Positions 5,373 to 61,876 of a DNA stretch of 64,000 nucleotides are shown here, one piece after another (the first letter of the stretch is position 1; each line of letters starts with the position of its first letter). Position numbers and translations under genes: made by a program. The stretch is from Inonotus obliquus (lineage: Eukaryota > Basidiomycota > Agaricomycetes > Hymenochaetales > Hymenochaetaceae). The stretch is from contig JAJHTX010000012.1 in NCBI GenBank assembly GCA_032164295.1, forward strand, positions 1,854,769 through 1,918,768, written 5' to 3'. A model generated the notes under the pieces. The model did no database searches and was not told where the DNA came from. It worked only from the letters and a program-made list of their open reading frames with translations.

Positions 5373-6448
5373 TCATTTGGACTTGTAACACTGTCCAGGA
5401 CTACTCAATTCAGAATAGGAAGTGTCATCCTCCGATGCTGTGGTGCTGATATCAGGGTTCGTCATCATGTCTACAGGGCTGAAGGCAGTATGAGACTCTA
5501 GCAAAGATGATTGTGATGCAACGGGTGGAGACAACTGTCTGTACACAAACTTTCTGTACCAGCTTTTCTTGACAGTATGTGGGGAAGGGAGAGATGAGCT
5601 TTCTGAAGCAGAATCCTGTTGTTCAGCTCCTGGACGGCCATCCTTGAAGAGCCACCCTCTTGCATATGCTAGTCTTGCTTTCACTTTCACTTTGTTCTTC
5701 TTGATAGAACTGCTAACGGGCCTGGGACTGGACTTCCAGGGTGGTGAAGCTGTACTTCCCTTGCCCTTTCAGCCAGTAGGTGTCAACTTTGTGGAGGATC
5801 ACTGCAATTGAGAGCTACTTGCTATGTAGGAAGCCAATCTTAAGGGAGGAGTTTCCATTTGCACATCGCCTTTGTCATCTATATCCCAAGAACAGTTGGA
5901 TCGCTGGATTTCGTTGACCTTCTCGAAGTTGATCTTTCTCTTGAGAGATGATGGCACCAAGGACATCCAGTTATCCCAATTTTTTTTGTGTATATCCTTG
6001 CCTAGCATTGGCTGAGGGTCCAGATGGAGAACAATGCCAACAAAGGCAGCTATCTCCTCTGGCTGCAGTTGTAGACAGGACGGCATCAGAGTGTCCATCT
6101 TATAGTTAGGGTCCCTCATCAATGACTTACACTGTTGATGATCATGAATCATAATTGTACACCTTGTAGAGGATAACATACCATGAAAAACAGCTTCCCA
6201 AAGGAAGCCAGGGTCTTCTGTTCACCGAGGCCCAGCATCACCTCGTGTTCTTCAGGTTCATTCAGGCACTTCTTCTTGCAGGATAACACCATATAGTTGA
6301 AGACTTCTTTACAAGCATCAGGGCCAGGGAGAAAGGCCTTCAGAAGGACCATGACACAAGCGTCGACACCATTGGGAGGGTGCTTCAATACTGGGTAGAA
6401 TTTCATAATGCAGGTAGTGTTGGAAAGTTCAAGGTGATGAGAGAACAA
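5373..6448 (-). pseudogene. hypothetical protein gene, probably spliced or broken
   Basis: Three consecutive minus-strand frames read as one protein. The first (6448-6182) contains CKEVFNYMVLSCKKKC and ends at FGKLFFM before a GTATGT donor. The second (about 6130-5820) contains LQPEEIAAFVGIVLHLDP and WDNWMSLVP. The third (5690-5376) is Ser-rich and starts in a basic segment. A stop after the second block separates it from the third. I do not recognise a domain. The clustered Cys residues in block one could bind metal. There is no clear promoter, and nothing in the neighbourhood suggests a role. Confidence 0.3.
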
Positions 6449-7964
6449 TTGGCTAACTGGTCTATTTGTATACTACACATGATTTACTAAGGCCTATGTA
6501 CAGACTGGCCACGCCATTGGTTGAGGACATTGACATCAAAGAGCCACATCAAACTTTATTTGTCCTGAGTTGAAAAGTCTTGATATGCATGCCTTGGTGT
6601 AATTGTCCACGCGTTTTGAGCCATGGTGGCACTTAAACATAGTCTTCATTAATGCTGTGAAGGAACAACACATAATTCCACTTGTCATGACAACGGAATG
6701 TGCAAGAGAACAAGTGTATGATTAGCATCTGAAATTGAGTTAGAGAAATCGGATGAGCGCACTAATATCATCATCACTGTCATCCTCCACCCATTTCCTC
6801 AGCTTTGATTACTGGCATCTGAATCAAATAGCTCGACTCATCTCGCGCAACATGTAGAACTGCAACCACGAATCACAAGTGTTTTTGAAAGTCGGAGGCT
6901 TGTCTCTTTGCTCTTGATTGATTAGTCCTACTCACGCTGAGGTCTTGTCAGCTTTGGCATAGTGTAGCATACACTCGGACACCATTTCAATCTAGCAATG
7001 CTCTTGTTAATGCCAGAATCTTGTCTGCCTAGCTACATTCTTTTTTTGTTCTCTGTACAAATTCACTTACAATTATCATTAGTTTACATTTCTATATATG
7101 TACGTACAATAATAATCCTTCCTCCATCGTTGTGTATGGCTACAGTGAGCAAAAAGCTCGCCTTGCTTTTCCAACAATGGTGGTGGAAGAGAAACGTGCC
7201 ACAAAGTGCTCTGTGTTGTTTTCTGCACATGACACGTGAGAAAAGTTTCCTGTAAGCAGAATTCAGAGCTGGCAATAACTTCAATTGGATAAGTGAGAGA
7301 GTGGAAGGTCAAACCAAAATTAGAAAATGATTCTTACGTGTCATGTGCAGAAAACAACCCTGAGCGCTTAGTAACAACCTTTCTCTCCTCTGTCAACATT
7401 CTGTACCTCGCAAGGCCACGTCTCGACATCTAACCACAATTTTTACTTCTTTTAGCTGTAAGTGCTATTGTATCGGTCTTGTCCAGGCTGCTGACCATTT
7501 TCCAGTAAAAAACACGGTTACTATTGACCTAAAGTAAGTATGCCAGCTGTCGTGTAGCATAGCAGTAGTATACTAGTAGTTTAGCACTGCAAAAAAAAAT
7601 TTGCATTATCTTAAGGATGGAGTGATGAATTTGAAAAGAAAAAACAAGTAAACAATGCACGTACCGACTGTAGATAGAAAATAAACAAACAACAGAGCAG
7701 TGTACTGCTGCATGCTAGAAATTGTGGCTGAATCTCCTGTAATTGAGTAACAAACACAGAGGTGAACGGGACAGAATGTGCGGAATAATGTGATGGAAAG
7801 AGCACGTTACTGAAGCGAGGCAACCAAGGCCCTGTTAGACCCTTCAGTTTCCTACCTACAGTCAGTTGCAGCCACAGGTCAGATTGACGAAGATTAGTAT
7901 TGATGTTCGTTACCTTCAGATGATTTTCAATATCAACAACCCGGTTTGCAAGTTCCTCGATCTC
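6449..7964. repeat. gene-free stretch with a 22-bp inverted repeat
   Basis: No gene is seen. A perfect 22-bp inverted repeat, TTGTTTTCTGCACATGACACGT at 7216-7237 and its reverse complement at 7336-7357, is separated by about 98 bp. Degenerate similarity continues outward into GTGCTCTG / CTGAGCGC. It could be the remains of a small foldback element. No target duplication was found. Confidence 0.4.
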
Positions 7965-8307
7965 ATGGCAAACTTGTTTTCTGGTGATGAAGAGGGTGAG
8001 GATGGTGAGGAGGGAGAATCTGAAGGTGAGTTGGGCAAATTCATCTACCTACCTCCTTTTATTAAGGATGCAATTTAGGGGGGTGACTTCATCGATGACT
8101 CTGCGCAGTCTGCACAGTTGTTACATTTCTCTGTGCAGCCAAGTGCTAGTGACGCTCTCAATCATGGTTGCACCCCTAATTGACCCTGCAAGGCATTGTT
8201 CAACAACAATGATGAGGCTGAAGCCATAGCAGAGCGATTCCAAAAGCGAGCACAGCTTGAGGCACAATGGGACGTGCACGCTCTACCATCGACAGGTGGG
8301 CTGGGTA

Positions 8308-9111
8308 CAGTCATTCACGTGTCCTTTAAACATACCCCGTTCCTTTGAACACAAGCCGTTTTTCGCTCAATTCTTGCTCTATCTCCTCGAAAATTGGTAC
8401 ACACGCTCACAGAATATATACTAATATATGTGCAAATTTTGAGAAAAATCCATCAAGTGGTTCTTTCTCTGATAGCTATTTACCTCGAAAAATGAGCAAA
8501 TTCTGACATTCATGCAGAGGGCAAGTTTTCCTGCACCAATTATTTCCTATAAAATCATGACTTAACTTATGATATAGCTTGTACAGTGTACTAGCAATGC
8601 CCTGTACAAGTTTCACAAGATTTGAAGCAGGGGTTACATTTATATCAAGCAGACAAGTGAAAAACCTCAAGAAAATGTGACAAATCGAGTGATCGATGCA
8701 ATTACATAATTTGTATTAGCATGTGCATAGTGTCACTTGTTGTAAACAAATGAGCAATGAGGGCTACACTTCCCTCCATCTGCACATAAAAAATGATACA
8801 TAGGACATTAATACCAAGTATAAAAATGGCAGATAGTATATCTAGAATAAGGGAGGAGTGGGAAGGCAGTATTCAAGCTAGTGTGACATAGTGTCACGAG
8901 TGTTCAAAGGAGTTGGTTTTGCGTGACAGGGACCCCATTTCTTCACATTCTCATATTTATTTTTTCACTCAATTTCTCGCCACCAAAAAATTACACAAGG
9001 TGTATCCTGCTGGGAACTATACATACATGTACTTAAAGTGAGAAAAAAAAGTGTGTGATGGGTGTTATTTTGAAGGATCGAATAGGTGTTTAAAGGACGC
9101 GTGAATGACTG
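8308..9111. mobile_element. MITE, Tc1/mariner-type, 804 bp
   Basis: The ends are inverted repeats of about 25 bp, beginning CAGTCATTCACGTGTCC on the left and matching the reverse complement of the right end with one mismatch (CACGTG against CACGCG). The element is flanked by TA on both sides (8306-8307 and 9112-9113), the target duplication of the Tc1/mariner superfamily. It has no coding capacity, so it must have been moved by a transposase encoded elsewhere. It lies inside the Spt5-like gene, probably in an intron. Confidence 0.75.
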
Positions 9112-10851
9112 TAGGAGTAGGTTTCCTGAAAGCTGGGACCTTGAGATTGATGACACAGAGCATTTGTTGTTTATGATTCAAGCTGTGAGTTATTGGTTAT
9201 CCAGTTGTAATTTCTACTTACATTTTCTAGCCCCATTCCACCCGTGAGCAAGCTAAACGTGCAGTGGCACGCCTACCAAAATCCTGCCTAGCTTTCTTTG
9301 TCCCCTCTTTACCTAGCCGGTACTACATTTGGGCTCCAGACATGAAGACTTTCGTTGAAAGTCTACTATCTCAAAACATGCACATTCCTGATAGCCAGAT
9401 CAGTTTTGTCCCGCTGGAGGAAATGGAAACCATCTTTAGGTGTCGTGACGGAGGATGCCTTTGTTTACTGAACACAGGAGACTGGGTTACTATTTTCCGG
9501 GGAGTTCATCAAGGAGATTATGGTGTCATGAGAGACATGCTGGAAAAAGGTGATCTCCTCAATGTAGCTGTAGTCCCACGCATTTCACCAGATGAAGACA
9601 CTGGCTCTGGTCATCCTCAACCACTTTTAGCTAATCGGGAATGGTTGGAAAGCATATATCCCAGAGAAAAAGTCAAAGATGCTGGACCGGATTTGTTCAA
9701 GTTCTGCAACAAGCTATTTGAATCTGGTCTGCTTATTTTGATGCTCTCCTCACTTCATTCCATACGCCCTGGTTACCCCTCTGTGGCTCATTGTGAGAGA
9801 TGGTAGGGATAGTAGTTGATATCACAGATGACACCGTCATATTAGAGCAGGTGTGTAGTATCGGGGAGTCTGCGGCTGGCAAATTACAAAGGGGAGAGGT
9901 CTAGCTGCACCAGCAGGTGATTGACTTGGCTGGACCTCGATTACCAAATGCGAGTTGTGGCTGACAAGAAGTACACCGCATTCTAGAGCCTGGGGACAAC
10001 GTCACCATCAAGCTCAGGCCATGACAAGGGCAGGATGGGGTCATCATTGCTGTAGAAGGTCAATCCCTGCTCATCTATACTAGAGAGACAGAGCCCTTTG
10101 TAAGTTAAGTTTCATTTGCTGTCATAAATTCTGTTTCTAACTGTGGACAGACAGATTGATGTGCCAAGAACGTGGGTAGAGACAATAACACTAGACGGAG
10201 TAATGCGGAAGATGGCTAAGTCAAGATTATGCACAGAGGAATACTGTTTCATCAAAGAGGGTGTATACAAAGGGTATGTTGGAATTGTAGGAGCGGTAAC
10301 CAAAAAAGAGTTCACGGTGAGGCTTACATGAGAGAGGGCTCGTAAAGAAGATGGGCAGGCTTGAGTAAGTGGCTTATTGTGAGTGCATTGTTATGAAGAC
10401 ACTTATGTGTATCTGTCCAGCTAAGCCTCCCAATGGATTGCACCATAGTGTGTCGGAACCCTGAGAGCGATCCAGCCACCTTGGCGCAGTATGCCGCCTA
10501 TGTTGAGCAGCTGTTTGTATACCAGAAAATGAAATGGAGCCCATTACTTGGGCTCTGGGTCTTCATAAGAGGGAATGATGGTGAAGCCCGACTTGCTAAG
10601 GGATCGTTCGGTGAGGTGATGAGTGTGGATCAAGAGAAGTGGACCACTCAAGTAGCTTACTTGGGCAGGTTAGGGACTTTCTCATTGAAAAGTCTGATAG
10701 ACGTGTAAGTAACTTTCCTCACTGAGATATTCTCAAATTCTCAAATTCGAACAGAAAATTTGTTGTCTGTCTTGATGATGCACACTTGCTCTCCAATAAA
10801 GAGAGAAAATGGTATTCAAAGAGGTTACTGGAACTGAAGCAATACAATGTA

Positions 10852-10855
10852 TCGC
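10852..10855. repeat. 4-bp target site duplication TCGC (left)
   Basis: TCGC directly precedes the left LTR and recurs at 24159-24162 directly after the right LTR. The same TCGC also follows the adjacent solo LTR at 25470-25473, giving three copies in the order site, Gypsy element, site, solo LTR, site. Confidence 0.8.
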
Positions 10856-12507
10856 TGAATGTGCGAGAACGCGGCCGGTATTAGAAATACCGGATGAGGG
10901 GGGTACGATTTAGATGCGTTGGGAGGGCCGGTACGTGGCGGTACTAAGTCGTACAGTCACAGACAAGTCGTCAAGAGAGAATAGTAGGGCCTGGCGAGAC
11001 GAATCCGTCGATACCGAGTCGTCTGGTGTCTGGTATTACGGTAGAGAGAACGAAGCAGTAGAGGAAGCGAGCTGAGGAGGTGTTTTTGATAGGACTGGTC
11101 GTGAGACGAGAGACGAGGGCGACGAAGACGAGAACGACGACTACCGGTATCGATACCGGTGACTACGAGACGAGACGAACGAACGGGGACTTGAACGGGA
11201 TGAGCAAAACCCGGACCTTCACTCTGGAAGTTCCTCTCAGATTAGCTGGTTTGCTACAGTAGAACATGCAGGCTATAAATACCATAATACCGTAGCCATT
11301 CAAGATACCAAATGGGGGGTTTTTACAAGTCGAATCGTACCGTAATCCGGTACAAGAAATGGAACATAAGGTCGAATCGAATGTAAAATTACAATCAGGG
11401 GAAACATAAGATGATGAATGAATAAGAAGTTTTATCAGGGGGTAGCTAAGAATAGGGTGGGACGAGACAAGAACCCAATGAAAACTCACGACGAGCGATA
11501 CCGAGGTAGGGCGGCGATACCGACGTCGACCAGCGCTAAATTAAGGACGTGTCTCAAGCTACCGCATGGGCGCTCCTGGCGATGTCCCTGTCGTAGGAGA
11601 AGCACGTCATCCTGATTTACCTTTGTTCCGGTATCATGATCCGTGCGGCGTCAGTCTGGGCGTCTACCGATCGATCGGACGGCGTGCTCCGATGTAGACG
11701 TGTCGGTACAACCCAACCTTGGCAATGGGGTACTCTACCGTTCGGTACCAATCAGTACCCTGGGATCGTCCCTGAGCATCGCTCTAGCCCCTCGATATCG
11801 ACCGGTACGCGTCGCCTGACTCGACTGGGCATTGCTTGGCTTCCCCTCCGAGTCGGATCGATGGCCTCCTCCGAGATCGAAGCAGCGTACGGAGGACTTG
11901 ATTCATTTCCCAACCTTCCTCTCGACGTAGATCTCCGATGGCGTGGTCTCGACCTAGCACACGTAACGAACTCCGGTATCGGAGCGGACCATCGGTATCA
12001 ACACCGGTATCGTCGGTATCGATGTATGGCGGTTCGGAAGGGCATACCGTCGGGCTTGGAACCTCGACCATGATCCAACTCTTCGCAGCAACGTATGGCA
12101 GACCGAGTGCAGCTTTGTGAGCCTTTTTCTATGGTATGGGCTGTCGAGGGCGTAGTATCGACTAGGTGTGGAGTATTAAGCGTCGGTATCAGGACGGGTG
12201 GACGGTACGGTATCGGTATCATCGGTATCGAAGTCTGGTGGTTCGGTACTATGATGGAAGACGGGCGTAGGGATTGGTGATTCGGTATTGGCGCAGAAGT
12301 GGACCAGTTCTCAATCGCTCTCAGCCTTGTCGAATCGCAGAAGCCTCGTACTTTGTTGGAACCGCAGGCGTAGATAGGACGGCAGAAGTACCGTGGTCCG
12401 AAGAGAAGTAAGAAGCGGTAGAATCGCAGAAGTATTGTTAATTGGAAGAAGCGGTAGAATCGCAGAATTAAGCCCATATCGATCGTAGCCTCCGGTATTA
12501 CTCTTTA
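10856..12507 (-). repeat. 3' LTR of the Gypsy element
   Basis: It has the same 1652-bp length as the right copy. On the plus strand it reads TGAATGTGCGAG...TTACTCTTTA, so in element orientation it is TAAAGAG...GCACATTCA, a TA...CA terminus instead of the usual TG...CA. It is unusually long and contains many CGGTA/TACCG words. Short ORFs inside it are repeated exactly in the other LTR and are not treated as genes. Confidence 0.93.
11143..11160. promoter_or_regulatory. 18-bp perfect palindrome ACCGGTATCGATACCGGT in the LTR
   Basis: This is a perfect inverted repeat with CCGG at each arm and ATCGAT at the centre. It is repeated at 22794-22811 in the other LTR. In the older solo LTR at 45300 the corresponding site reads CTGGTATCAATACCAG, eroded by CpG transitions. 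Fungal Zn2Cys6 proteins typically bind inverted CGG/CCG half-sites, and this element encodes such a protein, so it is a candidate operator. That binding is inference. Confidence 0.4.
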
Positions 12508-12514
12508 TCTCCCC
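12508..12514 (-). other. polypurine tract candidate
   Basis: In element orientation the internal region ends GGGGAGA directly before the 3' LTR (TAAAG). This is the position and composition of the purine tract that primes plus-strand DNA synthesis in LTR retroelements. It is short but exactly abuts the LTR. Confidence 0.6.
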
Positions 12515-12666
12515 GGTACTTTAGATAGTGACTGTCCCCAGTCACCAACCTTCCGTCTTGATCACGTGACGAATCGATTGGCGGGAGAAGATGGGCGTTT
12601 ATAGACATTTTTGGAGCGCGACTTCGGTAATTGCAGCCTTCCAAACGTAACCTTCGCTTGACCACA

Positions 12667-14330
12667 ATGGCTCGCACAACGCACACCAAGACCTACGGGC
12701 GTCACAACCGCAGCAGCAACAACAACAACAACGGCAGGGATGATCGCAACGATGACCAGAACCGCGACGGCGACGGCGACAAAAACGACGCGAGTGGTAG
12801 ACGAGTACCGCGTATCCGCATCCGGCGAACGTCCGTGCTCCTGGCGAGCCTGAGGCGTATCTCCTCAGCTGTCCGGGAACGTTTGGCATGGTACGTGGAG
12901 CATCGTGAGGAGCTGTTGGTGGAGTCTCGTGCTGGAGGAAGAAAACTACCGACGCACTGGCGGCGGTTGAAGAGGTTTTTGTGGTTCAAGGTGTGCATCG
13001 GTATTAGATTGTCTGGCTTCTCTCTGTACTGATTGGTCGATAATAGTTGTTGTTCGAGCGTACCATCCGAGAGTACTACGGTACGGTACCGGTAGCGGCG
13101 CGACGTATGGGAGACGTGGACTGGCGCGGGTATTGGACGGTAGTTCGTGCCTGGAGTGAGCTGCGCTGGATGGTGCAGCTCAATTTGCCTAGGGCCGTAC
13201 GCTCGGTCATCCGCAGGTTGAGGCCGTACGGGTACTCGTCGTCGACGGAGATCCTCCCCCTCCCATGTTGGTTACCTGACCTACCACCTACGGGAGGGGA
13301 GATGGACGCGTTTCTGTACCCTACGGGAACGGACGAGGGGGTCGCTGAGTACATACCGCCCGAGCGTACACCGGTACCGACGTGGGAACGACCTGAGCGA
13401 TGGTTTCCACAAATACCGGCGTCGATCAGCGAAGTACCGGAGTCGGTACCTGTCAATACCGAGATCGGCGAAGACGACGAGGATGACGATGATGACTACG
13501 ACGGAGACGATTTTGACGACGGTAATGAGGGCAACGGCGGACCAGCCATACCGAGGCGCTTATCAAAGGGTAAGGGGAAGGCGGTACCGCGCCGTCAAAC
13601 ACGACTGCCGCCGCACCGACCTCGACGCGTGTGGCCTCCCTCCTCGGAATCAGTCGGTATTTCACGAGTGAGGGCTGCGCAGCGTCGGTATGCGAGGCAG
13701 CGGCATCAACAACAGCAGCAGCAGCAACGGCGGCCATGGTTTGGCGAGGCGTCGGACAACGGACCGTCGGAGTTCGTACCGATGGCCGGCCTTCCTTCGG
13801 AAGGTTCTTCTTCTCGGCGTCGCGAAGCACGGTCCACTCCGTCAGAACCTGGGCCTTCGAATTGGCGTTTCGGTACACACCAACAACGACAACAACAACA
13901 ACAACAACAACAAACAAATCCATACGAGTATTTACTCGACGATCCCTTGCTAATCCCTCACAGCCACGACTTTTTCTCTCCTTCACAGGCGGCTCTGCTC
14001 GACGTCGACTCTGCTTTCTTCATACCGGTACAGTCTCAGCAACAGCAACAACAGCAACTACCGATCGATCGCTGGTGGCCGTACGACCAAAACGAGACGT
14101 TCGTCGTCAGTCGTGCGCAGTCGGTATCCGTGGAGCGCGTAAGGGAAATGCTGGGCCAGCTGGCAGAACAACGGGAGCGGGTGGCGAAAGGTCGAGAGGA
14201 GGGTGAAGCGTCGACCCCTTCTGGAGTCGAAGGCGCTACCGAGGCGTCTACCGAAGGGGAAGCGCCAACGACGACAGCGACGACGGCGAGCGAGACCGCT
14301 ACCGAGGCGGTAAAAACGGCGACGACGGCA

Positions 14331-14361
<31 letters not shown>

Positions 14362-16031
14362 TGGCAGACGTCGGTACCGCAGTCGAGGTACCGTCGTCGA
14401 CAGTTATTTCAGAGGAGACGGAACTGGAGCGGGAGACGAGGCTGACCGCGCTGGCCGACGAGGAGCAGCATAGGCGGGACTTGGAGGCGCTGGACGAGCT
14501 GCTGGAGCAGCAGAGGATCATGCGGGAGAGGATTGCGAAGCGCGAAGCTGAAGCTGCGCGCAGGGCGGCGAAGGCAAGGAAGCCTGCTCCCGTTACCGAG
14601 GAGAGCGCACCAGCCACAGCAGCAGCAGCAGCAACAACAGCAGCTGCAAGGACTGTAACCCCCACGACGGCTGTGCCAGAGGACTCCAGCCCCGCTACCG
14701 AGGTCCCAGCTGCAGTGGCAACAGCAGCAACAGCAGCAACTGCAACACTGGAGGCTGCTCCAGACGATGCTACCGCCACTACCGAGGCTCCCGTAGACAT
14801 GCCTCCCAGTGAGCTCCAGCAGCAACAACAACAGCAGCAGGAGCTACCGCTCTTCCTTCCAGAGTCGCTTGCACATACCGACGAGCAGCTGCAGCAACAA
14901 CAGCAGCTTCCTACTCCAGAGCCCGTCGACGTCCCTTCCACGGCTACCGAGCCGACTCAGCTGCAGCAGCAGCAACAACAAACACCAGAGGAGCCCGTCG
15001 AGTACGTTACCGACGTGGTAGAGGACGCTATGCAGCAGTCGCCTGCTCAGCCTCCTTCGGTAGAGGTGCCAGTACAGCAGCAGCAACAACAACAGCAGCA
15101 GCTTGAGACGCCTGCTCCGTCATCGTCGGTACCGCTGCCTCCACAGCAACAACAACAGCTACCGCAACCATCGCGGGTCCCTCCCTCAGCACGTCGAGCA
15201 CGGCCTTCGAAGAAGAAGCAGCCGCCTCCTTCTCAGCAGGAGCCATCACCTCCACGGCAGCAGCAACAGCAACAGCAACAGCGGCTGCGTACCGCCGAAG
15301 AGCTGGCAGAGGAGCACGGCCTCGTCATTCTCAACAGCATGGGGAAGTCTCGGTACCCAGGTCCTCCGCCGGTACCGTACGCCTATGCGTGCGAGAGGTG
15401 TCGGAAACACAACGCGGAGTGTGTGGGGCGGGAGGGGAAGTCTTGCTTCCTCTGCACCCTCAAGTGGCGTGTGAGGTGCGAGCACGCGTCTCATCGTAGG
15501 TCGCAGGCTCCAGCAACAGAAGCAACAGCAGCAACAACAACAGCAGCTGCTACCGCCGTGCCACCTGTCTCTCGCCCTCCACCGTCGGTACCGTCATCCG
15601 CCCCACCTCCAGCAGCAGCAGCAGCAGCAACAGCAGCAAAGCCGACCGCTACCGCCAAGACTACCGCGAAGAGGAAGAGGACTGAGGCCTCGGTAGAAGC
15701 ACCACCCCCTCCCAAGCGCAGGCGCGCCCCTCCCTCGTCCAAGCAGCAGCAACAGCAACAACAGCAACAGCAACAGCTGCAGCGGCCTGTGGCCGGACCG
15801 AGCCAGTTCCCAGGCTCGTTCGAGGACATGCGCCGCTCCCTCTCCATGGATGGGGCGAGCGGCCGTGTCAGGCGACTGGCGGAGGCACAACGGGACATCC
15901 GCGAGGTGTACCGCCTCGGCTCACAGCTCACGCGGCTCGCTGAGGGCACGCTGTCGCGGATCAACGTGTTGCTGTCAGAAGTGGAAGGGGAAGAGGATGA
16001 GGATGAGGATGAGGATGAGGACGAGGAGTGA
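12667..16031 (+). CDS. antisense polyQ Zn2Cys6 zinc-cluster protein of the Gypsy element
   Basis: The spliced gene has exon 1 at 12667-12990 and exon 2 at 13047-16031. The 56-bp GT...AG intron is phase 0, and the product is 1102 aa from ATG MARTTHTK. Upstream in-frame codons lack ATG, so this start was chosen. In order, the protein has an Asn/Arg/Asp-rich N-terminus, a basic helical block (RRTSVLLASLRRISS), an Arg/Trp-rich block, an acidic run (DDEDDDDDYDGD), and long Gln tracts coded by CAG/CAA alternating with Thr/Ala-rich stretches. Next come a zinc cluster at residues 890-919 (C-x2-C-x6-C-x7-C-x2-C-x7-C, starting CERCRKHNAEC), a KRKR/PPKRRR basic patch likely to be a nuclear signal, and an acidic tail (EEDEDEDEDE). 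Zn2Cys6 proteins are fungal transcription regulators, usually with the cluster near the N-terminus. Here it is near the C-terminus. The gene points away from the 3' LTR and against gag-pol, so its promoter is probably in or beside that LTR. The role is unproven. Confidence 0.8.
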
Positions 16032-16420
16032 AAGGTCGGCGCAGAGCTCGGTACGTCGGTAGTCGACGGTATCGAGGTGTTTGTTTCGTGTGCGATCGGA
16101 CTGTCCGCGTGTTTCTGTTCTGAAAAAAAATCCCTGCCTTTGATAAAGTAACCAGTAGATAAAAGACTTGTAGTTTTATAATACGGTTGCAAAAAAAGTA
16201 GTGGTTTCGTACGAAAAGAGGGTGAAATAAGAATGGAGTGCAGAAGGTGAAGTATAAGAGGATTGGCATACCGATACCGAAGGAAGCTTCGGTATCGACG
16301 AATAACATAATATATGGTTAGACGCATAATGGGCGGAATCATAGGACTTCAAAAAAAAAATGAATCATAAGGCATGGAAATTGTCATAAGGCATAGAGCA
16401 TTGTCAGACGGTATCGGTAT
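16032..16420. other. intergenic region between convergent antisense gene and pol
   Basis: This stretch of 389 bp separates two genes that end towards each other. It holds AT-rich runs (AAAAAAAATCC near 16125, CAAAAAAAGTAG near 16190, AAAAAAAAAATG near 16350) that could serve as 3' ends for both transcripts, and one CCGATACCGAAGG-like inverted pair around 16270-16296. No gene is seen. Confidence 0.4.
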
Positions 16421-19400
16421 TCAATCCGAATCAGACGCTGAGTCGTCTTCGGTGTACCGATGTGGTGTCATCATTTCGTGCTCATCCTCGCCCGACTTCA
16501 GAAGTTCTTCGATGGGAACAGAAATCTCCGAACGGGGAAAATAAGGAATCAAACGAAATGCAGCCACACTGAAACGGGATACCGAACCATCCAACTCCAT
16601 AATAATATACGTACCGGACCTAGTCCTCCTCACTACCACGTAGGGACCCAAATACCGAGGTTTCGTCTTCCTATCCAACTCCTTCTCGACTCGAGTGTTA
16701 CGCAGTAGCACGAGGCTACCGGGGTCGAAATCGTAGTCTTTGATCGTATGCTTGTGGACCTCGGCGAAATGTCTGGCGTACCGGTGGCGAGCGTCTAAGA
16801 CGATACGGGCTACTCGATCGAGGTCTTCCTGTCGCTTCTGCAGCTGTCTGGCACGCACGGAGATCAATTCGGTGGTCGAAAGCGGTCTACCGAAGTCTTC
16901 TACGAGATAGGTGGCTTCGGCGAGATCGAATGGCAATACTGGTTCGACTCCATGTACCATGTAGTAAGGCGACATTCCGGTATCCTTACCGATGGTAATT
17001 CGTTCGGCCCAAAATACCGAGTAGGCGTGTTCGTGCCATTTCGTCGCATTACCGCCGCTGGTCTTCATGAGGGCCTCTTGCACATCGTAGTGTCGACGTT
17101 CCACGATCCCATTAGCACGAGAGTTGTAAGCGGAAATACGGATGTGGTTGATGTGATACCGATCGCGCAACCAGTCTAGCGCCATGATGAACGGAGTACC
17201 GTTATCGGTAACGAGCTCTGGACAAGCGCCATACCGACATAACAGGTCCTGGAAGATAAACTGACCGATCGTATGACCAGTCTGCTTGCGTAGCAACCTA
17301 AACTCGGGATAACTAGTGAGCGAGCATCGAGCTTGGACAATATAATGGTATCCTCCAGACGCAGGCATGTGCTTTGTGTCGATATGTATCTTCTGGAATA
17401 TCGGCGCTACCGACGGTACTGATGGCGGTATCAACACCTTCGTCGTCTGTCGGTATTGACATTCGTCGCAGGTCCTGACGAAATATTTGACATCGTCGCT
17501 GACAGATGGCCACCAGAACCTTTCGAGTAAGCGTTGACGTACGACGTAGACTCCTTTGTGACCGAGGTTGTCGTGCGCATCCTGGACGAGGTTCCAGCGT
17601 TTCGCCAGTTCCACCACTAACTGAGGGGATTCCGATCGAGTCTTTCTCCAGAGTCTTCCCTTCTTCGTGAAAAATCCCGAGGCGTATCGAACGAAGCCTT
17701 GGAGGTGCTTCTCCGGTATGTCTTCTGGTCGAATACCGGACTCGAGGAAGCGTCGAACCTGCCCCAGTCGAATTTCCTTCTTCTGGGCTGCATCGGTCTT
17801 CGGAAACTCCAACCTTGGCGATGCATCGGTTTCGCCGGCGGTATATACCTCCCCTAATCCCTTCGAGACGCAACTTATCGCATGGGTCCTAGCGGGGTTG
17901 ACTGTCGAACTCGAGGGTGAAATACCGACTAATACCGAGGCGACGGTGCCAAGTACCGAAGTCATTACGAAAGCATAGGCATCGTCGATCCACTCCTCGA
18001 AGTCGTCTTCTTCTACTGGGTCTTCAGGGGCGGCTCTCCTTCGAGATAGTCCGTCGGTACAGGTGAATTCGGAAGCCGGTACATGTCGTAGTTTGAAGTC
18101 GAATAATAGGATACCGGCTATCCAGCGATTGATGGTAGCGTTTGGCTGGAGGTCTGGATTATTGATCATGCCTTTGACGTAGGCGGCGTCCATTTCTACC
18201 ACGAAGGTCTTGACTCCATAGATGAATAACCGTACCGCTCGCAAGGCACGAAAGAGTCCGAACAATTCTATCTTCGGCTGTGAGTACTGCGCTTGTACCG
18301 GCGACCAATTTATTGAACCGAATCGATTGATACGTCGTCTACCGTCAGGGTGTTCTTGTCCGAGGGTCCAACCTACTCCGATGATTGACGAATCTACCGC
18401 GAGCACCACCTCTCGTTCCGCCGAATAGTCGATAGCTGACAGCGCCGGGCACTTGATTACTGCTTCTTTGAGCTTGTCCATGGACTCCTGTTCGTCGTCT
18501 CCCCACTGAAAATTTAAGTTCTTTCGTGTTAACTGCGTGAGCGGTCTGGCCATCATCGAGTAACTTTTGATAAAAACGCGTAATACTCCTGCGGTACCGA
18601 GGAATCCTCGAACTTCGGTAAGCGTCTGGCAAGGCGGCCAGTCTCGAACTCGTTGTATCTTCGAATCGTCCGCTTCACGTCCGTTGTAGGTGAGTTTGTT
18701 ACCGAGAAATACCGCTGCGTCTGAGCAGGCCTGGAACTTCTTGCCTGAAAACGTCCCTCCTACTACTCTGACTCGTTGCAACACTCTGTTGACGTCGCAT
18801 AGGTGCTCGTACACAAACCTGCGAATACCGGGGTTGTCTGGCAGGGTTTCGAAAGTACCGTCATCGTTCTCATACCGAGCGAATCCTCCTAGGGTGATTA
18901 CGTCATCAGCATACGGTAGAGCAACGTCCGGTATCTCTTCATTTAGAATAAAGGTTACGTCACCGTGCATAATCTGCAGCGAATTCGTATACCCCATGGG
19001 CAGTACCTTGAGTCGGTAGGCACCCAGAGGCGTTTGGATCGTGGTAAGGTCGCGGGATCTCTCGTCCAGTGCGCGTTGGTCGAACGCAATCGCTAAGTCG
19101 AGCACGGTATAGCATGATCTCCCTCCACAACCGTCCACTAGGGTTTCGATGTTCGGCGGTACCGCTGAATCGCGAATTGATACTCCGTTTAGGTCCTGCA
19201 GATCGATTACGAATCGCAGCGAATCTCCATCTTTCTTGACCAGACAGAACCAACGGGATCGGTACGACGAATTCGATTCTTCTATGACGCCAGCTTGTAT
19301 CTTGTCCCGTAATAACTGGATCGTCTGCTTGAGTATACCGGGCGGTATTGGTATGTTCTTGCGCACCCACGGTACATGCGGTACCGTAGGCATTCGTACA

Positions 19401-20158
19401 GGATCGAAGTAAAGGGGGTCGAAGGTACCGCGTTCGGATTCGGTCCAAGCGAAGGCTCCTTCCTGCAACATCATCAGGTTGACTACGAGGTCCTCTTCGT
19501 CTGGCCACAGAAATCCATCGGGATTTAGCTCGAGTGCGTCCATTCGTTCTTGAGTTAGTTTCGTTGTCGGTACGAAGGGTATAGGTTTCGTCGGTAGAGT
19601 TGGCATTCCTCGCAGTGGATCAGGATGTCTTCGTCTGACTATCCTGAATTCCTCCGGTAAGACTCCTGGAACAGGCCTCACCTTCTGCGCTACCTTTTTA
19701 TATGCGAATACTTTGAGGTCGGTACCGTCGTTGGGATAGTCGAGCACCACCGAATCGAAGGAATCGTAATACTTGTCGAGCATTAGAGCGTTTTCTGATA
19801 ATAAATACCTGAGTCGATTCGAGAGAAGAGACGGCGAGAAATCGATAAATGTTTTTCGAATGTTTTCAGTGTTTCTTGATGAACGATACTGGCTACCGAC
19901 GTGGTCGAGCATAGAGGAGTGGGTATGGTCGTCGGTACCGAGGATAGAGAGAATCGATTTGAGCGAAGAGTCGAGTGGATTTGGGATATCGGTATCGAAA
20001 TGGTTAAGGATTCTGGAGTTGGTAACATGTCTTGCCGTACGGTTTAGGAGCACCGAGAACTCAGGATCGTCTCGCCGACCACTGGTCAGTTCCTCGACTG
20101 GGCAAAACCCGAGTCCGGTACACGCGTGTAGTTTCGTACTCCGGTAGCGACCATACAT
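16421..20158 (-). CDS. pol: Gypsy pol polyprotein: reverse transcriptase, RNase H, integrase
   Basis: The uninterrupted frame is 1245 codons from ATG 20158, although it is probably expressed by frameshift from gag. Reverse transcriptase shows RFVIDLQDLN, VLDLAIAFDQ and the catalytic box PYADDV. RNase H follows with VVLAVDSSIIGVGW, a QPKIELFGLFRA Glu block and VVEMDAAYVKG. The integrase zinc finger is H-x3-H...C-x2-C (HDNLGHKGVY ... CDECQYRQ). The catalytic core has IHIDTKHM, VTDNGTPF and NGIVERRH, giving D-D-E. The C-terminus has a GPY/F module (KPRYLGPYVVVRR). There is no chromodomain. All catalytic residues are present, so the enzyme should be functional. The overlap with gag is 73 nt in the -1 frame. 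Confidence 0.93.
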   Translation of the reverse strand: MYGRYRSTKLHACTGLGFCPVEELTSGRRDDPEFSVLLNRTARHVTNSRILNHFDTDIPNPLDSSLKSILSILGTDDHTHSSMLDHVGSQYRSSRNTENIRKTFIDFSPSLLSNRLRYLLSENALMLDKYYDSFDSVVLDYPNDGTDLKVFAYKKVAQKVRPVPGVLPEEFRIVRRRHPDPLRGMPTLPTKPIPFVPTTKLTQERMDALELNPDGFLWPDEEDLVVNLMMLQEGAFAWTESERGTFDPLYFDPVRMPTVPHVPWVRKNIPIPPGILKQTIQLLRDKIQAGVIEESNSSYRSRWFCLVKKDGDSLRFVIDLQDLNGVSIRDSAVPPNIETLVDGCGGRSCYTVLDLAIAFDQRALDERSRDLTTIQTPLGAYRLKVLPMGYTNSLQIMHGDVTFILNEEIPDVALPYADDVITLGGFARYENDDGTFETLPDNPGIRRFVYEHLCDVNRVLQRVRVVGGTFSGKKFQACSDAAVFLGNKLTYNGREADDSKIQRVRDWPPCQTLTEVRGFLGTAGVLRVFIKSYSMMARPLTQLTRKNLNFQWGDDEQESMDKLKEAVIKCPALSAIDYSAEREVVLAVDSSIIGVGWTLGQEHPDGRRRINRFGSINWSPVQAQYSQPKIELFGLFRALRAVRLFIYGVKTFVVEMDAAYVKGMINNPDLQPNATINRWIAGILLFDFKLRHVPASEFTCTDGLSRRRAAPEDPVEEDDFEEWIDDAYAFVMTSVLGTVASVLVGISPSSSTVNPARTHAISCVSKGLGEVYTAGETDASPRLEFPKTDAAQKKEIRLGQVRRFLESGIRPEDIPEKHLQGFVRYASGFFTKKGRLWRKTRSESPQLVVELAKRWNLVQDAHDNLGHKGVYVVRQRLLERFWWPSVSDDVKYFVRTCDECQYRQTTKVLIPPSVPSVAPIFQKIHIDTKHMPASGGYHYIVQARCSLTSYPEFRLLRKQTGHTIGQFIFQDLLCRYGACPELVTDNGTPFIMALDWLRDRYHINHIRISAYNSRANGIVERRHYDVQEALMKTSGGNATKWHEHAYSVFWAERITIGKDTGMSPYYMVHGVEPVLPFDLAEATYLVEDFGRPLSTTELISVRARQLQKRQEDLDRVARIVLDARHRYARHFAEVHKHTIKDYDFDPGSLVLLRNTRVEKELDRKTKPRYLGPYVVVRRTRSGTYIIMELDGSVSRFSVAAFRLIPYFPRSEISVPIEELLKSGEDEHEMMTPHRYTEDDSASDSD

Positions 20159-22431
20159 TTCCTGTCCGGCTCGTTCGGATCAGTAAGCGTAATATGCTGC
20201 TCACCGCTTAAGAAGTCCTTGGTCTCGCATTCGGTAATGGCGAAGAAAGGTCTCCCAAGTAAAACCTCAAACGGCGCTTTTTCGACCACGTGAACCTGAA
20301 GCCTCAGCTCAATACCGGCTACCGAGAACTTCGCGTTATGGATCATCCCCTTCGTGGACGACCTTCCGGTATCGGCTGTTTCGAGTACCATTTTCTTGTC
20401 GCTCCTTAGGTGCACTCCCAGCTTCTCCCACACGTCTTCCCTAATCAGACACATGACGGCTCCTTGGTCCAAGATCGCCACACACTCGACGGAATCTTCG
20501 ATACCGACTCGAACGGTACGCAAGGGCAGCGTGTCTTCTGCAGCCGGTAGACTACCGAACAATATCGACGACGGTTCTTCGGTATCGAATGGATCCTCGT
20601 CCTCGCCAACACTGACTATATGCGCATCTCCAGGGCTGACCCTTCTCGCGGTAGTCAGGTCCTTCATCTGCTTCCTCAGCTCGTACGATAGTGCTAATAG
20701 CTCTCGTTGGGTGACCGTGATGGGTGCTTCTAACGAACGAGCAAGGACACGTTGCGCCAGGGTTGGGTCTTCGATAGGGGCCACCGATCGATACTGCGGC
20801 GGCTGCGGATTAGTTGATGGTTGACTCGACCGCTGCGCGTACCGTGGCACTTCTTTAGGGGCATCAGTGCGAGGTGTGACTGGGGTCTGCTTGTTCGATC
20901 CGGTATTGGCTGGGACTTGGGGGTTGTTAGGCCTCGAGACGCGGGGAATTTCGACGCCATCGAATTTGGCCTTTCGTACCGCAGAAGCTTTCTTCTTGGC
21001 CTCGTTAAGCATGACTTCGAGACGGGCCACATCTTGGTCCCCTTCCCAATCGCGGGAAACGTCGGTAACGGCGGCGACCATATTAGAACCGTCGGTATTC
21101 GATACCGGTTGCGGTCCCAATTCGACGAGGTTTACTGAAGACTGGGCGGAGGACAGGTAGTCTATACGTTCCATCATGTTTCTACCGGGTAGGGAGTTCG
21201 AAGGATAAGAATTGTCGGGTAGGGTAACACGTCCTTCGGTATTTCGTTTACAACGTCCCAGGGTAATGTATTCTGCGACCTTCGGACAGGAACGAATGAA
21301 ATGAGTAGGATCGCTGCAGAAGGCACAGCCCCCGGGGCGAGACTGCGGAGGTGGCTGTACGCTGGGTCTTCTTCCCAACTGCTCGATCTGTAATTGAAGA
21401 CTCCTTACGGTATCCCACACGTCATCTTCTTTCTTGACAGCCGGCTTCGCAGCTTCGGCTAGTCCGGTACGGGGTGCATCGTCGAAGAAGTCGGTACCGA
21501 GAATGTGTTCTGCGTGCTTCACGATCTGATCTACCGAATAGACTCTTCCAGGTTCTGGGTCGGTCTCCTTCGTCTCCAGCCGCAGACGTAGACGTTCTCG
21601 AAAATTCCCTGTGAAGGCGGTGAAGAAGCTTCTTGCTGCTTCGTCCGCGGAGAAGGTACCGAGGTTTCGTAGGTAACTGGACCTCACTAAATATTCGTTT
21701 CGGTAGTCGGCCAAATCGAGACGAGATCTGAACCCCTTTCTACGCCAGGTCTCTACGAGTCGATTGACGTCTTCTCTCGTGAACCTAGACCCTTGGGTTA
21801 ACGTAGGGTAGAACGAGCGGATAGCTTCCTTGGCCCGGGCCCAATCAGCGGCGTCGGAGGCAACTCCAGGGGCGGTCTCCCACAGCTCAGCTACCGACGA
21901 TGAGGCGTAATATTTGGCGTACCGAATCTTCTGGGCGTCGTCCAAACCGCAGTCCACAGCTATAAATTCGATATCTTCGAGGTACCGGAACAGTTCTAAC
22001 GGCTCGCTACCGTCGAACGATGGGGCATCCCTTGCTCCACGCCTGGGAGGTCTAGCTGCCATGGCGTTACGGAGGTGAGGGGGTGGGCCTCTTACTGGAG
22101 GAACTATGGTGGCGTTTCTGGGGCGTGACGGGGTGTGAGTGGTGTTGGGGTTTGGTGACTGTGATGTGATAGTCGGAGGGGTGCTGCGGCGTTCGGTACC
22201 GCTACGGTTGGTAGAAGTCTGGTTAGCCAGCGAATTCTCACTCGGTAAGATGAACTCTGGGGCTTCGTCAACAGGGGACGGGCTTGCCGAGAACAATTCT
22301 CTACCGGTAGAAGACGGTGGTAACGAACTCAATACCGAGACAGTACTAGAGGCGGCAGTTACTTCTTCTGAGATGGAAAGAGAGGCGAACGATAATTCCA
22401 GTGACTCGTCGTCTGAATACGATTCTTCCAA
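20086..22431 (-). CDS. gag: Gypsy Gag with C-terminal aspartic protease
   Basis: The minus-strand frame codes for capsid, nucleocapsid and protease. After a Ser/Pro/Thr-rich N-terminus, a retrotransposon Gag capsid domain starts around FDGSEPLELFRYLED and continues through WARAKEAIRSFYP and FRERLRLRLE. One zinc knuckle follows, C-x2-C-x4-H-x4-C (CAFCSDPTHFIRSC). An aspartic-protease-like region near the C-terminus has ILDQGAVMCLI, with DQG in place of the usual D-[ST]-G, and later the flap and dimer part VLLGRPFF. The codon at 22431 is TTG. The first in-frame ATG is at 22062, giving 658 aa. The frame stays open upstream through the primer binding site into the LTR without an ATG, so the true start is unresolved. 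Confidence 0.88.
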   Translation of the reverse strand: MEESYSDDESLELSFASLSISEEVTAASSTVSVLSSLPPSSTGRELFSASPSPVDEAPEFILPSENSLANQTSTNRSGTERRSTPPTITSQSPNPNTTHTPSRPRNATIVPPVRGPPPHLRNAMAARPPRRGARDAPSFDGSEPLELFRYLEDIEFIAVDCGLDDAQKIRYAKYYASSSVAELWETAPGVASDAADWARAKEAIRSFYPTLTQGSRFTREDVNRLVETWRRKGFRSRLDLADYRNEYLVRSSYLRNLGTFSADEAARSFFTAFTGNFRERLRLRLETKETDPEPGRVYSVDQIVKHAEHILGTDFFDDAPRTGLAEAAKPAVKKEDDVWDTVRSLQLQIEQLGRRPSVQPPPQSRPGGCAFCSDPTHFIRSCPKVAEYITLGRCKRNTEGRVTLPDNSYPSNSLPGRNMMERIDYLSSAQSSVNLVELGPQPVSNTDGSNMVAAVTDVSRDWEGDQDVARLEVMLNEAKKKASAVRKAKFDGVEIPRVSRPNNPQVPANTGSNKQTPVTPRTDAPKEVPRYAQRSSQPSTNPQPPQYRSVAPIEDPTLAQRVLARSLEAPITVTQRELLALSYELRKQMKDLTTARRVSPGDAHIVSVGEDEDPFDTEEPSSILFGSLPAAEDTLPLRTVRVGIEDSVECVAILDQGAVMCLIREDVWEKLGVHLRSDKKMVLETADTGRSSTKGMIHNAKFSVAGIELRLQVHVVEKAPFEVLLGRPFFAITECETKDFLSGEQHITLTDPNEPDRKCMVATGVRNYTRVPDSGFAQSRN
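20104..20110 (-). promoter_or_regulatory. -1 ribosomal frameshift heptamer G-GGT-TTT
   Basis: In gag frame the overlap reads TCG GGT TTT GCC, so GGGTTTT fits the X-XXY-YYZ slippery rule exactly. Slipping back one base moves ribosomes into the pol frame, 16 nt before the gag stop (TGA at 20088-20086). This is the expected way to make Gag-Pol in Gypsy elements. I did not identify a downstream pseudoknot. Confidence 0.7.
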
Positions 22432-22486
22432 AGCGGCTCGATTGCGTTGCCAGGCGTTCTCTCGACGTCGAGTCAGTTTGAACCCT

Positions 22487-22504
22487 CCCTCGCGGTGGGC
22501 TCCA
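22487..22504 (-). other. primer binding site candidate
   Basis: On the plus strand this reads CCCTCGCGGTGGGCTCCA, ending in CCA two bases from the 5' LTR. It looks like the 3' end of a tRNA, so its complement in the element RNA (TGGAGCCCACC...) would pair with a tRNA primer. I could not assign the tRNA. Confidence 0.6.
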
Positions 22505-22506
22505 GT

Positions 22507-24158
22507 TGAATGTGCGAGAACGCGGCCGGTATTAGAAATACCGGATGAGGGGGGTACGATTTAGATGCGTTGGGAGGGCCGGTACGTGGCGGTACTAAGT
22601 CGTACAGTCACAGACAAGTCGTCAAGAGAGAATAGTAGGGCCTGGCGAGACGAATCCGTCGATACCGAGTCGTCTGGTGTCCGGTATTACGGTAGAGAGA
22701 ACGAAGCAGTAGAGGAAGCGAGCTGAGGAGGTGTTTTTGATAGGACTGGTCGTGAGACGAGAGACGAGGGCGACGAAGACGAGAACGACGACTACCGGTA
22801 TCGATACCGGTGACTACGAGACGAGACGAACGAACGGGGACTTGAACGGGATGAGCAAAACCCGGACCTTCACTCTGGAAGTTCCTCTCAGATTAGCTGG
22901 TTTGCTACAGTAGAACATGCAGGCTATAAATACCATAATACCGTAGCCATTCAAGATACCAAATGGGGGGTTTTTACAAGTCGAATCGTACCGTAATCCG
23001 GTACAAGAAATGGAACATAAGGTCGAATCGAATGTAAAATTACAATCAGGGGAAACATAAGATGATGAATGAATAAGAAGTTTTATCAGGGGGTAGCTAA
23101 GAATAGGGTGGGACGAGACAAGAACCCAATGAAAACTCACGACGAGCGATACCGAGGTAGGGCGGCGATACCGACGTCGACCAGCGCTAAATTAAGGACG
23201 TGTCTCAAGCTACCGCATGGGCGCTCCTGGCGATGTCCCTGTCGTAGGAGAAGCACGTCATCCTGATTTACCTTTGTTCCGGTATCATGATCCGTGCGGC
23301 GTCAGTCTGGGCGTCTACCGATCGATCGGACGGCGTGCTCCGATGTAGACGTGTCGGTACAACCCAACCTTGGCAATGGGGTACTCTACCGTTCGGTACC
23401 AATCAGTACCCTGGGATCGTCCCTGAGCATCGCTCTAGCCCCTCGATATCGACCGGTACGCGTCGCCTGACTCGACTGGGCATTGCTTGGCTTCCCCTCC
23501 GAGTCGGATCGATGGCCTCCTCCGAGATCGAAGCAGCGTACGGAGGACTTGATTCATTTCCCAACCTTCCTCTCGACGTAGATCTCCGATGGCGTGGTCT
23601 CGACCTAGCACACGTAACGAACTCCGGTATCGGAGCGGACCATCGGTATCAACACCGGTATCGTCGGTATCGATGTATGGCGGTTCGGAAGGGCATACCG
23701 TCGGGCTTGGAACCTCGACCATGATCCAACTCTTCGCAGCAACGTATGGCAGACCGAGTGCAGCTTTGTGAGCCTTTTTCTATGGTATGGGCTGTCGAGG
23801 GCGTAGTATCGACTAGGTGTGGAGTATTAAGCGTCGGTATCAGGACGGGTGGACGGTACGGTATCGGTATCATCGGTATCGAAGTCTGGTGGTTCGGTAC
23901 TATGATGGAAGACGGGCGTAGGGATTGGTGATTCGGTATTGGCGCAGAAGTGGACCAGTTCTCAATCGCTCTCAGCCTTGTCGAATCGCAGAAGCCTCGT
24001 ACTTTGTTGGAACCGCAGGCGTAGATAGGACGGCAGAAGTACCGTGGTCCGAAGAGAAGTAAGAAGCGGTAGAATCGCAGAAGTATTGTTAATTGGAAGA
24101 AGCGGTAGAATCGCAGAATTAAGCCCATATCGATCGTAGCCTCCGGTATTACTCTTTA
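22507..24158 (-). repeat. 5' LTR of the Gypsy element
   Basis: It has the same 1652 bp as the left LTR, with one visible difference. It should carry the promoter for gag-pol, reading leftwards. The palindrome at 22794-22811 and dense CGGTA/TACCG words are conserved. It ends at TTTA directly before the TCGC target copy (24159-24162). Confidence 0.93.
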
Positions 24159-24162
24159 TCGC

Positions 24163-25469
24163 TGAAGAGAACTACATACAGCTAAGCCCGGTATTGAGCC
24201 CGGTATCCCATTCTACGCTTACCCCATGCTACGGTACAGTCCTGTCTACACCTTCCAGTATCCACCAGCACACCTGAAGAAACCGTTGGTCCCATTTCTC
24301 GAAGTACCAAACACCGAGAGTACCAGTACCGAGTGCCAAGAAACCCGGTACCGAGAATGCCGAGAGTACCGAGTGCCGAGAAACCCGGTACCAAGACAAT
24401 TTGACAATTTGACATGCTCTCATGATGGATTGGACGTCTCCCTCTCTGGTATTCATTCTTGATAGTTGGACTATGCATGCTGGTTCTTTGGGGAAGCTCA
24501 GGGTCGGTATCTGTTAAGGTTTTCAGGTCCGGTACCACCAGGAACATGTCAGTATCAATTGGCAGGGGCTCAAATCTCTTGTCCTGAGGACTTTTCATCC
24601 AGGAGTACTATATGTTATGTTTTCATTGGTATCTCGTCCTACCTAACCCTTTCTTGTTGTCCCTCTGATGGCTCTACTGTATTCATTCTTCTTATGACAT
24701 TTTTCTTTGTTTTGATCTTCCTTTTCTACTTTCCCCTTTTGGAATTATGAGCTGACTACGGTACAGTAGTATAGATATCTCCTCCTGTATGTAGTAGCTC
24801 TCCAGGTAATCTTAGGAGCTAGCCTCTAGCATGAGGGCTCGGGTTTTCTCACCCCCTTCTCAGTTCTGTCTCAGTCTTGTCTCGATTTCCATCCCAGTCC
24901 CATCCCAGTTCCATCTCAAGTGAACCTTCAGAGTTAGCCTCCCGTGTGAGGGCTCAGGTTTGCTTCCCAGTCCAGTTGACACCTTCATCTACCAGTCTCT
25001 CTCATTCAGTTTCTTGCTATACCACCCCGTGCCAGCTGTTTTCTTGCAGTACCGACGTGTACCGACATTTTTCTCACAGTACTGACCTTTTGTTATCCTT
25101 TGTATTCTGCATGTCACCCTTTTGTTCCTGTACTGATCTTCTTGTTTGACAACATACCTTTATGTACTGACCCCTTTCCTTCTGTACCGACCTGTACCGA
25201 GGTTTTTTCCATGGTGTTAGACTTTTGTTTTGCTACATTCTCCCTTGTACTGACCTGTACCAAAGTTTTTCCCACATTCTAAACTGTCCTTTTCATACCA
25301 GAATCACATACTCTTCGCTTCTGGCCCATCCATTCAATCCTCCATTTCATAGACAACAAGTACCGTGAGCGTACTGGTTAAGTACCGGCGCGTATTAGCC
25401 CTCCCCCACTTAAAACCATACACCCCTCGTCTCGGTACCTCCGGTACCGGACGCGATCTCGCACATTTA
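24163..25469 (+). mobile_element. divergent solo LTR of a related Gypsy family, 1307 bp
   Basis: It starts TGAAGAGAAC directly after the TCGC copy of the neighbouring element and ends CTCGCACATTTA directly before another TCGC (25470-25473). The last 60 bp match the end of the other LTRs (GGTACCGG...TCTCGCACATTTA against GATACCGG...TCTCGCACATTCA). Its interior is also rich in GTACCG words but otherwise differs, with tandem TACCGAG-type words at 24300-24390 and GTACCGACC-type words at 25040-25260. It lies in the opposite orientation to the complete element. It was there first, and the younger element then entered its left target copy. Confidence 0.65.
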
Positions 25470-25473
25470 TCGC

Positions 25474-47489: not shown

Positions 47490-47501
47490 GTCAATGCTAT
47501 C

Positions 47502-47614
47502 GCTTTGACTTAGCTTTTGCTTTATGATCCAGAGTAGAATCGTCCCCAGCTTAACCACCTGAAGCATCAGGAAGCAACCCAACAACAGTAGAGTCTGTCG
47601 AAGAAGAGATCCTG
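47502..47614 (+). pseudogene. TOM1-like fragment, copy 1 part b
   Basis: These 113 bp match 58492-58606 of copy 2 (intron end, then exon text around PEASG and ATVESV). They lie between the LINE and the TIR element. The TIR element interrupts the sequence after GATCCTG. Confidence 0.75.
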
Positions 47615-55939: not shown

Positions 55940-55959
55940 CTCCCTTCCAGCCTGCCTTC

Positions 55960-61841: not shown

Positions 61842-61876
61842 CATACTCTACTCTCTCTTCATTACATATTTAATAG

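Follow-up and report, generated by a model that had tools for sequence, protein, structure and literature searches.

What use could a retrotransposon have for a gene that is read against its own gag and pol? The question is raised by a Ty3/Gypsy element in a 64,000-nucleotide stretch of Inonotus obliquus DNA, hereafter the window, which forms the final 64 kb of contig C12 (JAJHTX010000012.1) in a genome of about 36 Mb. The element is read on the minus strand and has the order that marks Ty3/Gypsy elements: long terminal repeat (LTR), gag, protease, reverse transcriptase (RT), RNase H, integrase, LTR. On the opposite strand, in the gap that separates the end of pol (stop at 16421) from the 3' LTR (inner edge at about 12507), and without overlapping pol, a frame of 1102 codons opens with an ATG at 12667 and closes at 16031, free of stops once 12991-13046 is spliced out. 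From the comparison of copies, this antisense frame is almost certainly a selected protein-coding gene, and the element around it is crowded with one 5-bp word, CGGTA. We propose, tentatively, that the protein encoded by the gene reads the word.

The initial annotation had described just such a spliced frame, with six cysteines spaced C2C6C7C2C7C, polyQ, polyA and Thr tracts and an acidic tail, in a copy with nearly identical LTRs. All of these features are recovered here with the same start, intron and stop, and the two LTRs differ at a single position per 1654 aligned, so that the window element is a young copy. The GT and AG of the predicted intron are retained in all four other copies that span it. 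Much of the protein is low-complexity, and its cysteine cluster lies close to the C-terminus. About 60-105 bp upstream of the ATG, inspection by eye of the sequence alone picks out CACGTGA, ATTGG and TTTATAGA in what may be the promoter.

A genome search with the window pol returned six loci of the same family (on C12, C2, C5, C9, C11 and, in two pieces, C13), and the antisense gene is present, whole or in pieces, at all six; relatives without it, which the initial annotation had named as a reason to doubt its proposal, were thus not found. A seventh locus, on C10, was reached through the antisense gene alone, and seven further matches to the gene, of 29-47 bases each, were left out of the counts. 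Relative to the window, the C5 and C2 copies are nearly identical and C9 is 97% identical, while the partial copies on C11 and C10 stand at 88% and 90%; the C13 copy has an LTR inserted inside the gene. In-frame stops number one in C9, two in C11 and three in C10, all of the C-to-T type, and none in C5 or C2. The earlier concern that relatives might carry the gene only as disrupted sequence therefore holds for C9, C11, C10 and C13, but not for the two stop-free copies.

Selection on the frame is measurable in these copies, as had been supposed. For exon 2, the ratio of non-synonymous to synonymous substitution rates (dN/dS) is 0.24 against C9 (p=1.6e-8) and 0.33 against C11 (p=1.7e-13); the corresponding whole-gene values are 0.26 and 0.33, and the short C10 piece gives 0.43, all of them inflated by changes that decayed copies acquired after insertion. 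For comparison, pol gives 0.165-0.21 in C9, C11 and C13. Over exon 2, dN/dS is 0.98-1.29 in the other two forward frames and 1.0-1.5 in two reverse frames. The remaining reverse frame reaches 0.35 and 0.36 but contains 10 and 9 stops, and because it is in register with the third positions of the gene we regard it as a shadow. Insertions and deletions (shared ones counted once per copy) are multiples of three in 15 of 15 cases within the coding sequence and in none of nine outside it; since slippage in the tracts alone could yield multiples of three, we place the weight on dN/dS. All six cysteines, for which purifying selection had been predicted, are kept in each of the four other copies that span the cluster, including the one at 88% identity. 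Frame-specific purifying selection rules out a chance open reading frame (ORF).

The cluster spacing conforms to the Zn2Cys6 consensus, C-x2-C-x6-C-x5-12-C-x2-C-x6-9-C. Away from the element, the genome contains five weaker matches to the cluster (E 5e-4 to 0.05); the three that were checked as open frames all read C-x2-C-x6-C-x7-C-x2-C-x6-C and share with the element a C-x-G-x-x-G-x-x-C middle, one host frame being 43% identical to the element's cluster over 28 residues. Cluster-bearing open frames outside the element are found at L051:668-1402, L051:2430-3281 and L052:964-1632; two of these adjoin on C4 and are coiled-coil in appearance. The whole antisense protein matches no Pfam family at E 1 or better, TRP28 (PF04195) included, and neither the exon 2 product nor the cluster matches NCBIfam. 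The N-terminal part has no match elsewhere in this genome outside the element at E 1. Scored on its own as a 51-residue fragment, the cluster obtains 13.0 bits from PF00172, below the cut-off of 21. Of the Zn2Cys6 identity first put forward, the spacing thus stands and the family membership does not; given the sub-cut-off score and the lack of database relatives described below, we call the protein Zn2Cys6-like, a resemblance in spacing and sequence, and assign it to no family.

The second line of evidence lies in the DNA itself. With either strand counted and expectations taken from dinucleotides, the LTR contains CGGTA 37 times (5.2 expected), the region of the antisense gene 67 times (6.7) and gag-pol 99 times (14.3), or about once per 57 bp over the element, with strand counts of 99 and 104. 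Host stretches of the window hold 6 copies (1-10855; 6.0 expected) and 14 copies (47001-64000; 16.0 expected). In pol, gag and exon 2 no reading frame of the six is without the word. Its 15 one-mismatch neighbours together fall short of expectation (281 vs about 376). Synonymous-codon shuffles that preserve protein and codon use produce on average 15.0, 8.4 and 10.5 copies in pol, gag and exon 2, against 64, 37 and 54 seen, and none of 1000 shuffles reached the observed count in any of these frames or in the gag of a second family introduced below. The 203 words of the element sit in 202 distinct 15-bp contexts and so were not spread by tandem duplication. Among 15 words with at least 60 copies, CGGTA is the most evenly distributed (variance/mean 0.35 in 500-bp bins, p=0.002), without convincing periodicity. 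Its flanks carry little information, with a weak T before and C/T after, and the overlapping palindrome CGGTACCG appears 14 times where about 2 are expected from flank composition.

The decayed copies indicate what becomes of the word once an element has stopped moving. Nearly all CGGTA words found in them are also present in the window copy (172/176 for C9, 86/88 for C11, 96/100 for C13, 35/38 for C10), compared with 92%, 78%, 88% and 70% of control words, namely other CpG words of equal G+C, some of which may have been created by decay (p 0.005, 7e-7, 0.012 and 0.0035; overlapping stretches counted once). Lost words mostly became TGGTA or CAGTA, which are CpG transitions. We read this as maintenance of the word in the mobile lineage and erosion by CpG decay in dead copies, and selection of CGGTA at the DNA level appears very probable to us.

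The word is not confined to this element. A triple-CGGTA pattern has 1433 and 1212 matches genome-wide (two strands, overlapping), against 47 and 46 for its reversed control, and two LTR types recur among the matches listed on C1. One of the clusters listed is a different element, L053 (C1:217900-222400), whose LTR at 82-1443 is without overall similarity to that of the window element, and whose gag frame is open over 893-901 codons. L053, the one copy examined for pol, matches neither pol nor the antisense gene; judged from how far apart repeated LTR patterns lie, the LTRs of this family enclose about 3.2 kb, space for gag alone. The 12 near-full copies of its gag that were listed are 88-100% identical and 10 are without stops, from which it follows that the family amplified with gag kept open; it probably borrows pol. 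L053 carries 97 CGGTA words (8.3 expected), 22 of them in repeated stretches and with 90 of 96 contexts distinct. The two gag proteins are 59% identical over their best-matching part and 60% over 224 aligned codons, within which the 11 and 12 CGGTA sites coincide in 5 places. A 33-bp tandem repeat occupies L053 3285-3454, within gag. In the window itself, 24163-25473 is an LTR of this gag-only family.

An antisense gene in this position is also not unique to the window family (A). In family B, represented by 13 loci whose pol is about 51% identical to the window pol in the RT part, a 256-codon frame with a 58-bp GT-AG intron lies opposite pol, between it and the 3' LTR, and its ATG is preceded at about 70 bp by a TATATAA box. 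It is complete and stop-free in 7 of 12 aligned loci (reference included) and cut, gapped or broken in the others; two further listed loci lie outside this alignment. Among the six complete non-reference frames, differences from the reference amount to 8 synonymous and 3 non-synonymous changes, too few for a test. Its protein is unrelated to that of the window element, matches no Pfam family and has no relative among 1747 candidates. Two families of the Gypsy lineage in one genome thus carry different antisense proteins in the same place. The pol parts of families B and D contain 1 CGGTA each, as expected; the only raised word in family B is TCGA, at about twofold. In the family B LTR (L039:1925-2305), a 12-bp unit (ATCGATTA-type) and a 29-bp unit are each repeated in tandem, possibly as binding arrays for the antisense protein of that family. 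For families D (L041) and E (L042), a light look downstream of pol in one copy each listed no comparable long antisense frame. Two mutually similar ORFs with a C-N/S-TCRPA stretch lie downstream of the D-family pol, at L041:2494-3384 and 4253-4906.

Based on these observations, we propose that the product of the antisense gene is a nuclear protein that binds DNA in a sequence-specific manner. The gene would have a promoter of its own where the 3' LTR meets the internal region, from which transcription would converge with that of gag-pol, and the protein would bind zinc through its cluster. As CGGTA contains CGG and is spread over the whole element, the candidate target is wider than the LTR: the protein could read LTR and coding DNA alike, and once bound might keep the element transcribable, by anti-silencing, by activation or by both. 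It could also serve in trans the gag-only family, which has the word without the gene. We consider this chain as a whole possible, with the balance tilted slightly against it. More doubtful is the fuller picture of a self-recognition code, in which a 5-bp word throughout a retrotransposon would be read by an antisense-encoded protein that also serves a gag-only parasite with a dissimilar LTR.

Several observations weigh against the proposal. The bond between protein and word is circumstantial, as about 9% of all 5-mers hold CGG or CCG. Besides the sub-cut-off Pfam score, PDB sequences gave two weak, unrelated-looking matches and no believable relative, the single-sequence fold of the cluster is unusable (pLDDT 58), and residues 48-232 found no relative among 1330 database candidates of 606-1928 residues. 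In the same database, pol residues 150-500 have at least 1241 relatives, with several proteins of named mushrooms among the 120 matches listed; viral contigs searched with pol gave no match. On the side of the word, the top neighbour CGATA is itself mildly raised (40 vs 25.8), and in the window-to-copy direction CGGTA is barely better kept than controls (p 0.013, 0.077, 0.41 and 0.25, in the copy order given above). Family B has its antisense gene without CGGTA enrichment. One in-frame stop is common to C9 and C10, either because the same CpG change arose in parallel or because a lineage continued to move after its gene was broken. There is no Gal4-like paired CGG spacing, only CGGTACCG being in excess among the pair spacings, a pattern that would fit single-site binding with coverage by density; three LTR pairs at spacing 8 (shuffle mean 0.8) are the best of many spacings and are not counted as evidence. 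The last such point, the unlikeness of CGGTA to the VANC sites, belongs to the comparison below.

The alternative that survives best accepts the gene as a true regulator of the LTR or of host genes and leaves the reading of CGGTA to a host DNA-binding protein, to integrase or to Gag. The gene and the word are each well supported and the link between them is not, and the gag-only family combines Gag and the word in the absence of the gene. The near-equal strand counts, however, speak against an RNA packaging signal, and the lack of enrichment in the two host stretches and in the pol parts of families B and D counts against this alternative; we rate it a serious contender, though on the unlikely side. 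A different function of the antisense protein, such as RNA export, counter-defence by protein contact or integration targeting, with the cysteine cluster in a structural role, is an improbable alternative. This would suit a largely low-complexity protein whose cluster scores below the Pfam cut-off, and family B, where an unrelated protein with other cysteines occupies the same place, suggests that the place is shared rather than the fold. Yet the spacing suits a zinc cluster and is near that of three host open frames, and the basic patch and acidic tail, judged by eye, resemble those of a nuclear regulator. That the gene was captured from the host and is a useless passenger, a view for which host frames with a similar cluster might be adduced, is very improbable, given its occurrence in whole or in part at all six loci with this pol, its selection in frame, its intact cysteines and an N-terminal part unmatched at E 1 outside the element in this genome. 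An origin of the CGGTA excess in composition, mutation or codon use could appeal to the CpG richness of the element (observed/expected 1.22) and its mild enrichment of TCGA, but is scarcely credible in the face of jointly depleted neighbours, synonymous shuffles in four frames, and a word present in LTRs and all frames and not enriched in the tested parts of families B and D.

The coordinates underlying the proposed self-reading element are collected in the table below. The window ends in a telomere-like terminus (63860-64000), where TTAGGG is interspersed with TTAGGC units, and the element is subtelomeric. Both of its flanks share the short repeat (A)TCGC. Many LTR copies near-identical to its own are found genome-wide, and many of the genomic LTRs listed have about 68 bp extra at LTR position 140 (about 10995) relative to its two. 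At 29399-31041 and 45297-46940, in opposite orientation, are LTRs of this type that are older and diverged, with fewer CGGTA and more TGGTA/CAGTA, as in CpG decay. A repeat at 3-1031 recurs at L057:2-1025 with 91% identity. An Rfam search of 10000-25000 gave no match.

Features of the antisense gene, its host element and the family B counterpart (window positions unless a locus is named)
Feature	Position	Strand	Basis or content
Putative promoter and 5' leader of antisense gene	12508..12666	+	By eye; abuts inner edge of 3' LTR
Antisense gene, exon 1	12667..12990	+	Open frame, copy comparison
Antisense gene, predicted intron	12991..13046	+	GT...AG, 56 bp, TACTGAT branch-like sequence
Antisense gene, exon 2	13047..16031	+	polyQ/polyA/Thr tracts, cysteine cluster, acidic tail
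Six-cysteine cluster C-x2-C-x6-C-x7-C-x2-C-x7-C	15390..15479	+	Spacing; PF00172 13.0 bits
3' LTR	10856..12507	-	1 mismatch/1654 aligned vs 5' LTR; edge refined via LTR inserted in C13 copy
pol open frame	16421..20179	-	Pfam RT, RNase H, integrase zinc-binding
gag-protease open frame	20086..22560	-	Pfam aspartyl protease
5' LTR	22507..24158	-	LTR comparison; edge refined via LTR inserted in C13 copy
CGGTA/TACCG set, 203 copies vs 26.1 expected	10856..22506	both	One LTR and internal region
Family B antisense gene	L039:269-1097 (C1:3698668-3699496)	-	Cysteine-rich middle, Ser-rich tail

Should the antisense protein indeed read CGGTA, it would make of the element a sequence-coded self/non-self system in a retrotransposon, to which the nearest case known to us is that of the plant VANDAL DNA transposons. 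Silent sites of gag and pol could then be selected as binding sites, the persistent mobility of the gag-only element would be in part explained, and fungi would offer a compact, directly testable anti-silencing factor. The purpose of antisense genes in Gypsy elements becomes testable by one binding assay.

Among systems with antisense genes, HTLV-1 HBZ is a nuclear regulator. Like the gene described here, HBZ and other antisense retroviral genes lie on the 3' LTR side (PMC11963269; this and the following sources are cited for individual passages), but the window gene does not overlap the sense genes and shares no domain with HBZ by Pfam. Closer in position are the plant Gypsy elements Retand, Grande and RIRE2, for which the cited passages describe antisense ORFs that most copies carry in the interval from pol to the 3' LTR, with predicted DNA binding and a proposed regulatory role (PMC11963269). 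Theirs are plant genes with a TRP28 domain, whereas the fungal gene shows none and combines an intron, a cysteine cluster, measured selection and a word spread over the whole element. Our searches of the open-licence PMC literature turned up no fungal Gypsy element that carries a comparable gene or word. Extra ORFs are recorded for bdelloid elements (PMC5408684, in the part cited), and fungal DNA transposons are described as carrying a TET/JBP accessory gene, whose enzyme is thought to remove methylation and which is likely to counter silencing, as we propose here (PMC12730594, likewise); the window element is a retrotransposon, and its three frames contain no TET/JBP domain by Pfam.

With the Zn2Cys6 factors Gal4, AlcR and Pho7, the antisense protein shares the six-cysteine spacing and a candidate site containing CGG, the triplet that most well-studied members bind, usually paired; the same passages describe single-CGG sites for Pho7 (two sites) and monomeric binding for AlcR (PMC5559640). 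It differs in its score below the Pfam cut-off, its near-C-terminal cluster and its location in a retrotransposon. For recognition of self, the counterpart is VANC. VANC21 is element-encoded and binds a 9-bp motif that occurs densely in the family it comes from, and DNA methylation is lost as a result; VANC6 motifs occur in an unrelated element, which responds (PMC5735166, passages cited). CGGTA is likewise a short motif at high density in an element family. The VANC sites in that account are 8-9 bp long, belong to DNA transposons and lie for the most part in tandem repeats of non-coding DNA, in a single orientation, while CGGTA is 5 bp long and occupies both strands of coding as well as non-coding DNA, evenly and in distinct contexts. 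Recognition of an element's own family through a dense short motif is demonstrated for VANC (PMC5735166) and proposed for the antisense protein of this fungal Gypsy element.

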